Below, piece by piece: positions 38,402-47,519 of a DNA stretch of 64,000 nt. The notes beneath the pieces are model-generated. The model was not told the origin of the DNA, ran no database searches, and saw only the letters and a list, made by a program, of their open reading frames with translations. The translations under genes were made by a program, and so were the position numbers. Numbering within the stretch: position 1 is the first letter of the stretch; the number at the start of each line of letters is the position of its first letter. Origin of the DNA: an uncultured Candidatus Nitrosopumilus sp. (GTDB taxonomy: Archaea > Thermoproteota > Nitrososphaeria > Nitrososphaerales > Nitrosopumilaceae). The stretch covers positions 24,848-88,847 of the forward strand of contig CAJQSE010000005.1 of the NCBI GenBank assembly GCA_905612485.1, in the 5' to 3' direction.

Positions 38402-39865
38402 ATGATATTTTTTGATATGAAAAAAGAGTTATCCTCTGCATTAAACTATGCATTAAACAAAGGATTTCAAATTCATCCAGATGCATTTAAAATTTTAGAT
38501 GAAATTACAGATGTGAAACAATTAGAGAAAATAATAAAAGAAATTATTAAAGAAAAAACTAAACAGAAATTGTTTCAAATTAATCAAAATGATTTAGAAA
38601 TATATCTTGGAATAAAAGATGATCTTAATCTTCAAAATGAAATGAAGATATTATCAGATCCCACTAGTAAAATCACATCAGGAGAGGGGGTTAAAGGATA
38701 CAATGCCTTGTTTTCTAGTCGTTTTAACAAACTTAAACGAATTGTCTCTGATAGACCAGAATCAAAGATGATAAAATCCATATCAGTTGTTAAAACAACA
38801 AAATTAGAAAATGATGTGTATGTGTGTGGATTGCTTACCACACGAAATACTGAAAGAAACATCACAAAATTAGTTTTAGAAGACCTTTCAGGCTCACTTG
38901 AGGGTATTATTTTTGATGAGGAATTACAAAAAACTGCGGGAACTTTATTAATTGATCAATTTATTATGGCACGAGTAGCTACAGCTAAAAATTCAGGATT
39001 AATGATTAAAGATTTGATTTTGCCTGATATTCCAGATCAAAAAATTAACAAATCAGAAAGTGAAGTATATGCTGTATTTTTATCTGATTTACATATTGGA
39101 AGTAAATATTTCATGGAGGAGGAATTAATTGAATTTGTAACTTGGTTATCTAGTTCTGATCCTGTTGCTAGAAAAGTTCGTTTTGTCTTAATTGGTGGTG
39201 ATATAGTTGATGGTGTTGGAATATATCCAAATCAGAATAAAGAGTTAGTTTGTCAAACAGTTGAAGAACAATTACAAAAAGCAGAAAATTTACTAGATAA
39301 AATTCCAAAAAATATCAAAATTATCATTATGCCTGGAAATCATGACCCAGGAAGAAGAGCCCTGCCTCAACCTGCAATACCACAAAAGTACAATTCAGGT
39401 TTATGGGAAAGAGAAAATATTGAAATGGTTGGAAATCCAGCTCTGGTCTCATTAAATGGAGTTAAGGTATTGATGTTTCATGGTCAAAGTATAGATGATA
39501 TTGTAAAAACTACTCCTGGTCTAAGTTATGATAGACCTACAGATGTTATGAAAAATCTTCTTAGAGCTAGACATCTAAGTCCAGTTTATGGTAGTTCAAC
39601 ACCAATAGCACCAGAAGTAGAAGATCTTTTAGTAATTGAAGATATTCCAGATATTTTTCATGTAGGACATGTACATAAGGCTCAATTAGATATGTACAAG
39701 GGAATTTTATTAGTTAATTCGGGGTCTTGGCAAAAACAAACACCTTTCCAAGCAAGTGTTGGAATGGTTCCAAATCCAGGTCTTGCTATTATTGTAAATC
39801 TAAAAACTTTCCAAGTATTACATGAGAATTATAGTTCAAACTCAAATAATGTCTTGCAAAGTTAA
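38402..39865 (+). CDS. DNA polymerase D small subunit (DP1)
   Basis: LSDLHIGSKYF, GGDIVDGVGIYPNQ, PGNHDPGRRALPQPAIP, GHVHKAQL phosphoesterase motifs. Confidence 0.95.
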   Translation: MIFFDMKKELSSALNYALNKGFQIHPDAFKILDEITDVKQLEKIIKEIIKEKTKQKLFQINQNDLEIYLGIKDDLNLQNEMKILSDPTSKITSGEGVKGYNALFSSRFNKLKRIVSDRPESKMIKSISVVKTTKLENDVYVCGLLTTRNTERNITKLVLEDLSGSLEGIIFDEELQKTAGTLLIDQFIMARVATAKNSGLMIKDLILPDIPDQKINKSESEVYAVFLSDLHIGSKYFMEEELIEFVTWLSSSDPVARKVRFVLIGGDIVDGVGIYPNQNKELVCQTVEEQLQKAENLLDKIPKNIKIIIMPGNHDPGRRALPQPAIPQKYNSGLWERENIEMVGNPALVSLNGVKVLMFHGQSIDDIVKTTPGLSYDRPTDVMKNLLRARHLSPVYGSSTPIAPEVEDLLVIEDIPDIFHVGHVHKAQLDMYKGILLVNSGSWQKQTPFQASVGMVPNPGLAIIVNLKTFQVLHENYSSNSNNVLQS

Positions 39866-41050
39866 TTCATCTTTGAAAGATTTTTTAATCATTTCTGATG
39901 AAACTGTTAGTTTGTATTTTTTAGTTCTTCCATGAATTCCCTGATGAATTAATCTTCCAGAGATAATTCCAGATAATTCAATTTCACTTAACATTTGAGT
40001 AACTCGTCTTTGAGTTAATCCATCTTTTCCAACTACTTTACAGAGATTTTTGTAAGAAGAGTAAATCTCACCAGTAGATGACCCATTAGCCTTCATTATG
40101 GCTAAAAGTACTAATTTTTCATGTAGGGGGTATGATTTTAGAGAGGCTTCTTCTTTATTTTCTTCAATTTTTAGAGAGGCTTCTCTAACATGTTCAATTG
40201 TAACTTTATCAGATTGTTGTCTTTCAGCAAGTTCTCCAGCTACTCGAAGTAAATCAATTGCTCTTCTTGCATCACCATGTTCTCCTCCAGCAAGTGCAGC
40301 ACAGAGATTTAACGCAGGGTCTTCTACAGCGTTTTCAATAAAAGATTCTTTGATTCTTTCTTCTAGAATCTTTTTAATTTGTTCAACATTATAATTAGTA
40401 AATACAATTTCTTCTTCACCTAAACTACTGATTACTCTAGGATCAAGTTTTTCTTTGAATGTTAAGTCGTTTGAAATTCCCACCATAGTTAAAGATCCAA
40501 CCTCTAATTGCTCATTTGCTCTTGTTAATTGATATAGAATATCTTTACCAGTTTTTACAACTAGTTGAGCAAGATAATCAATTTCATCAATTACAAAAAC
40601 TGCATTAAGTTTCTCTGTACTAATTCTATTTAGGAGTCTTTTGAAGACTTCACTAATAGCAAGCCCAGTTGTAGGTAATTCTTTCTCATTTAGGCCTAAT
40701 TGCCTGCCTATACTAACTAATAATCCGTATAATGTTGTCTCGTTTTTAGAATTTGAATATATTAATTTTATTGGAAAATTTGATTTCTCAACTCTTTCTT
40801 GAATTTTTAAAAGAACTTTTTTAACAACTAAAGTTTTACCAGTTCCAGGTTTACCATAGACTAGTAAATTGGAAGGTCTAGATTGTTTTAGAATTGGTAA
40901 TAATGATTGAGTAACTTGTTCTTGTTCAGAATCTCTATGAAAAATAATATTTGGAATATATGTAAAATGAAGAATTTCCCTATTTTTAATAATAGATTTT
41001 CCAGATTCTGCTGCATCAAGCATTCTATCAATAGGGTCAGACATACTCAC
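39842..41050 (-). CDS. Orc1/Cdc6 replication initiator
   Basis: YGKPGTGKTLVVKKVL, VFVIDEIDYLA, GEHGDARRAIDLLRVAGELAE, C-terminal wHTH. Confidence 0.96.
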   Translation of the reverse strand: MSMSDPIDRMLDAAESGKSIIKNREILHFTYIPNIIFHRDSEQEQVTQSLLPILKQSRPSNLLVYGKPGTGKTLVVKKVLLKIQERVEKSNFPIKLIYSNSKNETTLYGLLVSIGRQLGLNEKELPTTGLAISEVFKRLLNRISTEKLNAVFVIDEIDYLAQLVVKTGKDILYQLTRANEQLEVGSLTMVGISNDLTFKEKLDPRVISSLGEEEIVFTNYNVEQIKKILEERIKESFIENAVEDPALNLCAALAGGEHGDARRAIDLLRVAGELAERQQSDKVTIEHVREASLKIEENKEEASLKSYPLHEKLVLLAIMKANGSSTGEIYSSYKNLCKVVGKDGLTQRRVTQMLSEIELSGIISGRLIHQGIHGRTKKYKLTVSSEMIKKSFKDELTLQDII

Positions 41051-41189
41051 ACACCTTCATTTCTTCTCTGTTCCATCTTACTCATTTCCTAATAAAGAGA
41101 GTATAGAATATAATAGTAATTCTAGTTTAGTTTATGATTAGTTATTTTTAATTAGATTTAGATTTTCTAAAAAAATAAATTAAAAAAAA

Positions 41190-41520
41190 GATAGAGTGGA
41201 AATACTGGTGTGTGGGTCTTTATGTTGGAAAAAAGATTAGTTAACAAATTGTTAATTTTATATGAAGAAAATCAAAAAAAACCTCATTTTAACCCCTATA
41301 TTTCCAATCCAGGCGTTAAGAAACCTATTAACATTGTGAATATCCCAAAACTACCCCTCTATTTCCACTCCAGGCATGATTATTTCATTATTAGGGGGTT
41401 TAAATTAGAAATTAAATGTTAATAATAGAAAATAGGCTAGGCGTAGGCTAGGCAGTCAATGTTAACAAACTACAATGTTAACAAAACTGATCAGATCACT
41501 TCAACCGTTAACATTAGATC
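41190..41520. other. Candidate replication origin: ORB-like elements and dense repeats
   Basis: ORB-like cores at 41194-41204 (+), 41291-41315 (-) and 41351-41376 (-); A/T-rich tract between; AATGTTAA motifs and tandem TAGGCTAGGC. Confidence 0.7.
41433..41453. repeat. Tandem TAGGCTAGGC x2 (period 11)
   Basis: 41433-41442 and 41444-41453 identical. Confidence 0.85.
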
Positions 41521-41535
41521 AATTAGATCTCAAAG

Positions 41536-41934
41536 ATGGCAAAAAAGAGAATTAGAATAGATATGGAGGATGCAGACGGTGCTCGTTATGATATTAAATT
41601 AGAAGGAAATGTGACTAGAGATAAGGTCCTCAAAATATTTGAAATGATGGATTTGATGAATATTGAAGAAGAGGAAGAAAAATCTATTAAAATGGATTCT
41701 ATAGGCTCTAAAATTTGGCATATTACAGATAAATTCTTCCCAATGGGTAAATTCACTTCGACTAATATTCTTGAAAAATATGAAGATGAATTTAATGAGC
41801 CTGTAAAACTTAGTGTAATATCGACATATTTGTCACGATTTGCAGCAAAAGGTAGGGTGGATAGAATAAGAACTGGCCGAGAATGGACCTATCAATCAAT
41901 TAGGATTGCTCAAAAACAACAATCTATCAAATAA
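41536..41934 (+). CDS. Small winged-helix-like protein adjacent to origin candidate
   Basis: 132 aa; STNILEKYEDEFNEPVKLSVISTYLSRFAAKGRVDRIRTGREWTYQSI. Confidence 0.7.
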   Translation: MAKKRIRIDMEDADGARYDIKLEGNVTRDKVLKIFEMMDLMNIEEEEEKSIKMDSIGSKIWHITDKFFPMGKFTSTNILEKYEDEFNEPVKLSVISTYLSRFAAKGRVDRIRTGREWTYQSIRIAQKQQSIK

Positions 41935-44141: not shown

Positions 44142-47100
44142 ATGTCTGAAAACGATGCAATTTCTCGTATTCGTCATATTGACATGCCAGACTATTATTT
44201 GGATTATTACTCAAATCTCTCAACTGAGACATATTCAATATTTGAGCATGCAGCATTAGCAAAATCTACTTTAGTTGATTCTTCAGGCATAATTGAGCCT
44301 AAAATTGCATTTGATTTAGCAGATCGAGTTTCAAAAATGCACGATATTGATATTGCTGAATCATTAAGAGAAATTTTAAAAATTGAATCCAAAGAACTTT
44401 CTGCATTAATTTTAGCTAAAGACATTGCTTTAGGAAAATATTCACTTCCAGATGCTTCTTTAGAAGATAAACTAGATCTTGCAGTTCGTGTAGGTTTAGC
44501 AATAATTACTGAGGGTGTTACTATTGCACCTCTACAAGGAATTAGTGAAGTAAAAATAAAGAAAAATAAAGATGGAACTGATTATCTTTCAGTTTCAATT
44601 GCAGGACCTATGCGTGCAGCCGGTGGAACAGAATCTGCAGTCACTTTACTAATTGCAGATTATGTTAGAAAAATAGCAGGATTATCAAAATTCCAAGCAA
44701 ATTCTTTTGATGATGAAACAGGTAGGTTTGTTGAAGAATTACGAATTTATGAAAGAGAAGCTAGTAGCTTTCAATTTCATATATTAGATGAGGATATTGA
44801 ACATGTTATTTCTAATCTTCCAGTTGAATTGGCTGGTGTAGATACTGATCCATATGAAGTTGTAAATCATAAGGGAATGACTAGGATTAAAACTGATAGA
44901 GTTAGAGGTGGAGCTTTACGTGTTCTTAATGATGGTTTGATTGGAAGATCAAAAAAACTACTCAAAAGAGTGGAAATGTACAATTTAGATGGTTGGGAGT
45001 GGCTTGGTGACCTTAAAGGTGCAGTTCAAACAGGTGATAATCAGGAAGATGCTGCAACAAAAAGAATGCGTGAGGTGATTACAGGCAGATCCGTTTTATC
45101 TATGCCTAACAAATTAGGTGGATTTCGGCTTCGATATGGAAGGGCTTGTAATACTGGTTTTGCAGCAATAGGATTTCATCCAGTTGTTGCTGAAATTTTA
45201 GATCATACAATTGCTGTTGGGACTCAAGTCAAAACTGATATTCCTGGAAAGGGAGCAACTGTTGCATTTGTTGATTCGATTGAAACTCCAACTGTACGTC
45301 TTGATAATGGTGACGTTGTAAAAATTAAAGATGTTAAACATGGAATAGAAATTAAAAATAAAATTGAAAAAATATTACATTTAGGTGATGTTTTAATTAC
45401 ATTTGGAGATTTTCTTGAAAATAATGCTCAACTAATACCATCAGGATATGTTGAGGAAATTTGGATAGAAGAATTAAAGTTAATTATTTCAAAATTTGAT
45501 ACTGAAAATCAGTATCTAAAACAATTTTTAATTAAAATACCTACAATTGAAGAAGCATTAAAAATTTCAATTAATTTCCAGTTTTCATTACATCCACATT
45601 ATCTTTATTTTTGGGATAAAGTTTCATCAGAAGAATTGGTTCAACTTTTAGAACCAAAAATTTTTAATGAAAATAATATTGAATATCCAATTAAAATAAA
45701 AAAAATTCTTGAGAAATTAGGAACTCCTCATAAAGTTAAAAATGAATATATAATTTTAGAAAATGAAGAAGCAAAAATTTTCTTTAATTTATTATTTATA
45801 ACAAAACCAATAATTGATGATTCCTCAGTTCCTCAGATTTTAACAAAATCATCAAAAATTAAAATTAATAATAAATTTTCAACTTCTGTTGGAATTAGAA
45901 TAGGAAGACCTGAAAAAGCATCAGCTCGACAAATGAAGCCTCCTACCCATGTATTATTTCCAATTTCTGATAAAGGCGGACCAACAAGAGATCTTCTTAA
46001 AGCATCACGAAATCAGCACTTTTTTGCAAATATTTACAATAGACATTGTTCACAATGTGATGAACCATCAATTGGAATAAAGTGCTCTAAATGTGGTGAA
46101 AAAACAATAATTACTTTTAGATGTAATAATTGTAGAGATACACTAACAGAACCATATTGTAAAAAATGTAAACGTAAAACTCCTGCACATTCTCATAAAG
46201 AATTTCCATTAAAATCACGATTACTTTTAGCTCAAGAAAAAATGGGTATTCGTGCAAAAGAACCTTTCAAAGGTCTCAAAGAATTAATCAGTAAGGATAA
46301 AATCGCAGAACCTCTTGAAAAGGGACTTGTACGTCAAAATCTAGGATTAACTACATTCAAAGATGGAACTATTCGATTTGATGCAACAAATTCTCCTTTA
46401 ACCCAATTCAAACCATCATGGATTGGAACTTCTATTGAAAAATTAAAGGAATTAGGTTATTCTCATGACATTGATGGAAAACCACTTGAAAATATAGATC
46501 AAATTATTGAACTTCGAATGCAAGATGTAGTAATTCCTAATGAAAGTGGAAGATATTTGGTTTCTACTTGTAAATACATTGATACACTTTTAGTAAAATT
46601 TTATGGTAAATCTTCATTTTATAATGTAAAAAATACTGAAGAATTAATTGGCCATTTGATTATTGGTTTAGCACCTCATACCTCTGTTGGAATTGTAGGT
46701 CGAATAATTGGATACACTGAAACTCATGTTTGTTTTGCAACACCAAATTGGCATTCAGCAAAAAGACGAGATGCTGATGGTGATGCTGATTCTATTATGT
46801 TGTTGATGGACAGTTTACTTAATTTTTCACGACAATTTCTTTCTGATAGAATAGGAGGTTTAATGGATGCACCATTACTTATTCAACCCCTTGTTTTGCC
46901 TCACGAATCTCAACCTCAGGCACATAATCTTGAAGTAACAAAAATACTTCCTTTAGAATTTTTTGAATCAACAATTCAACAAAGTAAAGCATCAGATGTT
47001 ACTTCAGTTGAAATTATTAAATCAAGATTAGAAACTAAGAGACAATTTTATGATTATCATTTTACTCATTCAACTTCATCATTAACAACTTCCAAATCTC

Positions 47101-47519
47101 GGAGTGCATATTCAACACTAGGTTCAATGCTTGATAAATTTGATATGCAAGTTAGAAATGCTGAATTAATTGATGTTGTTAATCCATCTGAACTTGTTTC
47201 AAATGTAATTTCAACACATCTTGTTCCAGATATTATGGGAAATCTTAGAGCATATGCAAGACAAAGTTTCAGATGTACTGCATGTGGAAAATCATATCGT
47301 CGAATGCCTCTTATTCAAACATGTGTGTGTGGTCATAAACTAATTGCTACAATTACAAGAGGTTCAGTTGAAAAATATCTCAAACTTGCAAAAAGACTAG
47401 TTGAAAAATATGATGTTGGTGAATATCAACGTGGACGAATTTATGCTTTATCTGATGAAATAGAATTAGTTTTTGGTAAAAGTCAGGGAGATCAATCCCT
47501 CCTTACAGATTATGCTTAA
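44142..47519 (+). CDS. DNA polymerase D large subunit (DP2)
   Basis: 1125 aa; GPMRAAGGTESAVTLLIADYVRK, zinc clusters, RRDADGDADSIMLLMDSLLNFSRQFL. Confidence 0.98.
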   Translation: MSENDAISRIRHIDMPDYYLDYYSNLSTETYSIFEHAALAKSTLVDSSGIIEPKIAFDLADRVSKMHDIDIAESLREILKIESKELSALILAKDIALGKYSLPDASLEDKLDLAVRVGLAIITEGVTIAPLQGISEVKIKKNKDGTDYLSVSIAGPMRAAGGTESAVTLLIADYVRKIAGLSKFQANSFDDETGRFVEELRIYEREASSFQFHILDEDIEHVISNLPVELAGVDTDPYEVVNHKGMTRIKTDRVRGGALRVLNDGLIGRSKKLLKRVEMYNLDGWEWLGDLKGAVQTGDNQEDAATKRMREVITGRSVLSMPNKLGGFRLRYGRACNTGFAAIGFHPVVAEILDHTIAVGTQVKTDIPGKGATVAFVDSIETPTVRLDNGDVVKIKDVKHGIEIKNKIEKILHLGDVLITFGDFLENNAQLIPSGYVEEIWIEELKLIISKFDTENQYLKQFLIKIPTIEEALKISINFQFSLHPHYLYFWDKVSSEELVQLLEPKIFNENNIEYPIKIKKILEKLGTPHKVKNEYIILENEEAKIFFNLLFITKPIIDDSSVPQILTKSSKIKINNKFSTSVGIRIGRPEKASARQMKPPTHVLFPISDKGGPTRDLLKASRNQHFFANIYNRHCSQCDEPSIGIKCSKCGEKTIITFRCNNCRDTLTEPYCKKCKRKTPAHSHKEFPLKSRLLLAQEKMGIRAKEPFKGLKELISKDKIAEPLEKGLVRQNLGLTTFKDGTIRFDATNSPLTQFKPSWIGTSIEKLKELGYSHDIDGKPLENIDQIIELRMQDVVIPNESGRYLVSTCKYIDTLLVKFYGKSSFYNVKNTEELIGHLIIGLAPHTSVGIVGRIIGYTETHVCFATPNWHSAKRRDADGDADSIMLLMDSLLNFSRQFLSDRIGGLMDAPLLIQPLVLPHESQPQAHNLEVTKILPLEFFESTIQQSKASDVTSVEIIKSRLETKRQFYDYHFTHSTSSLTTSKSRSAYSTLGSMLDKFDMQVRNAELIDVVNPSELVSNVISTHLVPDIMGNLRAYARQSFRCTACGKSYRRMPLIQTCVCGHKLIATITRGSVEKYLKLAKRLVEKYDVGEYQRGRIYALSDEIELVFGKSQGDQSLLTDYA

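Follow-up and report, generated by a model that had tools for sequence, protein, structure and literature searches.

Experimental mapping has placed one replication origin in N. maritimus (Pelve et al., 2013, as cited in PMC4010727 and PMC5333045). The prediction made for this species by Ori-Finder 2 was counted as a true positive (PMC4164010), and origin recognition box (ORB) repeats beside its cdc gene have been named (PMC5797428). The polarity with which Orc1 binds an ORB is fixed, and inverted ORBs around an A/T-rich element direct the recruitment of MCM (PMC12141716). The G-string of the box contacts the AAA+ domain, and in haloarchaea its extended form is indispensable (PMC3936714).

The region described here lies within a window of 64,000 nucleotides, the whole stretch of DNA analysed, from an uncultured Candidatus Nitrosopumilus sp. 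Because the N. maritimus origin has been mapped and predicted and carries ORB repeats beside cdc, the region is the counterpart (orthologue) of that single origin, and so of a known type. In genome G083 (loci L027 and L040), which we take to be N. maritimus SCM1, the gene neighbourhood, the order of ORB1, ORB2 and ORB3, their spacing and the GTTAAC boxes are the same, and the differences are base-level changes only; the SCM1 origin was mapped experimentally, whereas the present one is recognised from its sequence. Sulfolobus oriC1 (ORB3-DUE-ORB2, with ucm and UBP), as described in PMC12141716, is likewise adjacent to orc1, with inverted ORBs around an A/T-rich element and an extra non-ORB motif between them, a place taken here by GTTAAC in the spacer. 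The present region differs from it in having tandem ORB2 and ORB3 on one side, 61-62 bp apart, and GTTAAC boxes both in and around the spacer. Inverted ORBs with G-strings around an A/T-rich region beside cdc6 are shared with haloarchaeal oriC1 (PMC3936714), but no G-rich enhancer repeat was noticed here and the halophile-specific extended G-string is absent.

The intergenic region beside orc1/cdc6

The initiator gene adjoining the ORBs occupies 39842..41050 on the minus strand, starting at a GTG at 41050 or an ATG at 41044. Its identification as orc1/cdc6, already proposed in an earlier reading of the sequence alone (hereafter the sequence-only reading), was confirmed by profile matches (Pfam Cdc6_lid, 3.9e-25; Cdc6_C, 1.3e-20; TIGR02928, 4e-110), and the gene has 86-97% identity to orthologues in the genus. 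Its convergent neighbour is the small subunit of DNA polymerase D (DP1; 38402..39865, plus strand; PF04042, 2.9e-23), and the large subunit (DP2; 44142..47519, plus strand) was recognised by its Pfam DP2 domains.

As in origins of the oriC1 type, the intergenic region lies beside the orc1/cdc6 gene. It extends over 485 bp (41051..41535) to a divergently transcribed winged-helix gene and, as had been claimed, is unusually long: it is the longest in the window, ahead of one of 435 bp, once a 70-aa ORF inside it (41210-41422) is discounted. We took this ORF to be spurious because the distance from ORB2 to ORB3 is 61 bp in some relatives and 62 bp in others, which would break its frame. Just upstream of the winged-helix start, four GATC sites fall within 41 bp (41489-41529). 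Two to three of these are kept in most relatives; from genome-wide frequencies, 1.3 would be expected in all 485 bp.

The spacer between the inverted ORB1 and ORB2 (41217..41290) had been singled out as A/T-rich. At 19% GC it belongs to the lowest 6% of windows of its size, but it is not the extreme of the region: the stretch from the orc1 start to ORB1 (41100..41189) is richer still, with 12% GC (lowest 0.3%) and a conserved block at 41110-41150. This second stretch is presumed to hold the orc1 promoter and, although it lies outside the inverted ORB1/ORB2 pair, may contribute to unwinding. The spacer is a plausible duplex-unwinding element by analogy with Sulfolobus oriC1 (PMC12141716). Melting may start in either of the two stretches.

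ORB elements and their conservation

Read on the minus strand, positions 41351-41374 and 41291-41313 give CCTGGAGTGGAAATAGAGGGGTAG and CCTGGATTGGAAATATAGGGGTT, letter for letter as quoted in the sequence-only reading, and the third core, GAGTGGAAATA, stands exactly where it had been placed, at 41194-41204 on the plus strand and in the opposite orientation. The proposed resemblance to ORBs holds for these sites, with the correction that their core is a derived TGGANTGGAAA instead of TCCAGTGGAAA. As delimited here, ORB1 (TAGAGTGGAAATACTGGTGTGTGGG; 41192..41216, plus strand) is a divergent ORB, conserved in the family and inverted with respect to the other two, with its G-rich end facing the spacer. 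ORB2 (GCCTGGATTGGAAATATAGGGGT; 41292..41314, minus strand), which is also conserved, scores 34.9 bits against a matrix made without this species, and ORB3 (GCCTGGAGTGGAAATAGAGGGGT; 41353..41375, minus strand), a direct repeat of ORB2 at a distance of 61 bp, scores 39.1 bits. The layout is that of oriC1-type origins, with inverted ORBs, one on the plus strand and two on the minus strand, around an A/T-rich element.

Compared with the common motif TCCA[CG]T[TG]GAAA[TC][GA]AAGGGGT (PMC4164010), ORB3 agrees at 17 and ORB2 at 16 of the 20 positions (counted by hand), which places both among ORBs; the TCCA half of the motif reads TGGA in each of them. The two elements are unique in their genome context. 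The assembly that contains the window (948 kb) has the pattern CTGGANTGGAAATA at exactly two places, both at the origin, and the reversed-pattern controls do not occur at all. An ORB matrix derived from other species and applied to the complete 1.36 Mb genome G127 exceeded 10 bits only at the ORB3 and ORB2 sites (39.1 and 34.9 bits, respectively, at the origin), and the next best site genome-wide reached 7.2 bits. ORB1 scores -1.6 bits with this ORB2/3 matrix and is weak as a motif when taken alone. The short core GAGTGGAAATA is common in the window (37 matches with up to two mismatches, 28 expected) and therefore carries no weight by itself; the evidence lies in the full 23-bp element.

The sequence-only reading had staked its proposal on the conservation of the ORB-like elements between related species. 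We compared the upstream regions of orc1 from 37 relatives in the family, 36 of which aligned with the window, and found the number, orientation and spacing of the ORBs to be kept across the family. ORB2 and ORB3 were recovered as direct repeats by the pattern GCCTGGANTGGAAATAAAGGGGT, read on the orc1 strand, in 34 of the 37 Nitrosopumilaceae relatives, always 61-62 bp apart; in the other three (L036, L042 and L043) only ORB3 matches it. In these family relatives ORB1, with the consensus GATAGAGTGGAAATATTGGTGTGTGGG, lies 104-120 bp off in the opposite orientation to ORB2 and ORB3. The mean frequency of the commonest base over the 37 sequences was 0.93 in ORB1, 0.945 in ORB2 and 0.957 in ORB3, versus 0.76 outside the ORBs. 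ORB1 is thereby one of the most strongly conserved blocks between the two genes, its place and orientation being kept as well as those of ORB2 and ORB3. The constant distance between ORB2 and ORB3 suggests that two bound Orc1 molecules would be in contact on one face of the helix.

The corresponding sites in other families of the order are classical ORBs, for example CTCCAGTGGAAACAAAGGGGT, 60-62 bp apart. The Nitrosopumilaceae element is therefore an ORB with one half of its dyad altered, from TCCA to TGGA. Upstream of orc1, the change from TCCA to TGGA (or TAGA) separates the Nitrosopumilaceae loci L007-L049 from L050-L056 and L129-L135.

Nucleotide skew and the reading as an origin

The assembly containing the window is fragmented (50 contigs) and incomplete (74%), so relatives were used for the skew analysis. 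The closest complete genome is G127 (1,360,076 bp), whose orc1 is 97% identical, and its whole sequence was used. GC skew, which had been suggested as a check, gave no signal in G127 (2201 of 5000 shuffles were as large), and AT and purine (RY) skew were used instead. The detrended cumulative AT and purine skews share one apex, at 1,350,567, which is 9 kb from the ORBs (1,359,890-1,359,973). The nadirs, at 677,525 and 685,544, are half a genome from the ORBs, and none of 5000 block permutations produced an AT/purine skew range as extreme. The skew check thus bears out a switch at the locus in AT and purine skew, with a nadir at the antipode, while GC skew is flat. In a half-sample of the 1,645,259 bp genome G083, where the apex is broad, the AT apex at 0.12 Mb and the RY apex at 1.45 Mb flank the ORBs, and the nadir is at 748 kb. 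A single bidirectional origin at this locus would give just such an apex near the ORBs and an antipodal nadir.

The ORB sites are unique and conserved, they lie beside orc1 and close to both polymerase D genes, and in G127 the AT/purine skew peaks 9 kb away with an antipodal nadir. The observed features are thus position, orientation, conservation, fixed spacing and skew. They make us highly confident that the locus is the oriC1-type origin of chromosome replication in this Nitrosopumilaceae archaeon, and almost certainly the only start site. The candidate origin of the sequence-only reading is thereby supported, and the region would be where Orc1 binds, the DNA melts and replication initiates.

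In a divergent promoter region such as this one, the conserved elements could be mere promoter or operator sites of the orc1/winged-helix gene pair, serving Orc1 autoregulation while replication starts elsewhere. Three GTTAAC boxes at most about 80 bp from the winged-helix start codon would suit such a role, and promoter and origin functions can coexist. However, a skew apex at the locus with its nadir at the antipode, an ORB architecture complete with G-string and the mapping of the origin in N. maritimus (PMC4010727) all speak for replication starting here, and we consider a purely regulatory role very improbable. We give slightly less credence still to a relic, in which case this origin would be inactive or secondary and the main one would lie next to a different Orc1 paralogue. 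In its favour, some members of the genus carry a second Orc1 paralogue, a distant one (E about 1e-40), and the present genome is incomplete. Against it, G127 contains only one Orc1, its skew forms one V whose apex is at the origin locus, and the ORB sites are strongly conserved.

On this reading, ORB biology leads us to expect that Orc1/Cdc6 from the adjacent gene would bind ORB1 on one side and the tandem ORB2 and ORB3 on the other. ORB1 and ORB2 each have their G-rich end turned towards the A/T-rich spacer (41217-41290), where bound Orc1 would recruit MCM. The spacer would then melt, and two forks would depart in opposite directions towards a terminus half a genome away.

GTTAAC boxes and the winged-helix neighbour

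Besides the ORBs, the region holds four GTTAAC boxes, against 0.08 expected. One lies inside the spacer (GTTAACAAATTGTTAAT; 41240..41256), two form an exact GTTAAC-N10-GTTAAC pair (starting at 41461 and 41477; 41461..41482), and the fourth is at 41507..41512. The cluster (41240-41512 in the window; G127:C1:1359753-1360020) is unique in the G127 genome, and its 16-bp and 30-bp steps are conserved. Of 61 family genomes, 47 carry the GTTAAC-N10-GTTAAC pair, as a rule in one copy, and it stands at the origin in every genome with a located orc1; additional copies away from the origin were seen in G022 and G098. In families f2, f3 and f7, GTTAAC boxes are present in the corresponding region too. A literature search combining GTTAAC, archaea and replication origin returned no relevant origin paper, and neither the boxes nor the winged-helix protein is described in any paper that was found, the text of Pelve et al. 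(2013) lying outside this scope. At 41434..41453 on the plus strand AGGCTAGGC is directly repeated, its two copies being 11 bp apart; this sequence occurs only four times in the G127 genome.

The gene divergent from orc1 across the origin (41536..41934, plus strand) encodes a 132-aa protein with a C-terminal winged helix, a domain modelled by AlphaFold with a pLDDT of about 90. Searches with this protein found no family in Pfam and no sequence match in the PDB, and a fold search against the PDB gave generic winged-helix repressors only, none at E below 0.001. We therefore do not assign it to WhiP, UBP or any other named family.

Of 151 genomes of the order, 129 encode the protein, typically with its gene adjoining orc1. 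Its presence is strongly associated with that of this Orc1 ([126,5],[3,17], counted by hand; p about 2e-15), and part of this association reflects missing contigs, since the genes are neighbours and many of the genomes are drafts. Neither an Orc1 of the origin type nor the winged-helix neighbour was detectable in G026, G034, G036, G042, G049, G062, G066 and several f9 genomes. These genomes include members of genus g31 of family f13, one of them 96% complete; it is possible that the canonical origin system was lost in such genomes, or that the contigs are missing.

A fixed pairing in which the 132-aa protein binds GTTAAC is disfavoured, because the families of L056, L132 and L135 have the protein without the boxes, and we do not claim it. 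We put forward only tentatively, as somewhat less probable than its opposite, that these archaea, of the ammonia-oxidizing type, have a second origin module besides Orc1/ORB. It would consist of the GTTAAC boxes and a dedicated factor, for which the 132-aa protein is the best candidate, and would regulate or license initiation in the manner of Sulfolobus ucm/UBP. The observation of the GTTAAC boxes and the winged-helix protein is the sole part of the finding that may be new.

With this analysis a major lineage, for which reviews list only the N. maritimus origin as mapped, gains an origin described to the base and supported by comparison, and a derived ORB half-site is recorded for Nitrosopumilaceae. 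The GTTAAC boxes and the origin-linked winged-helix protein are candidates for initiation regulators still missing from the picture of these archaea.
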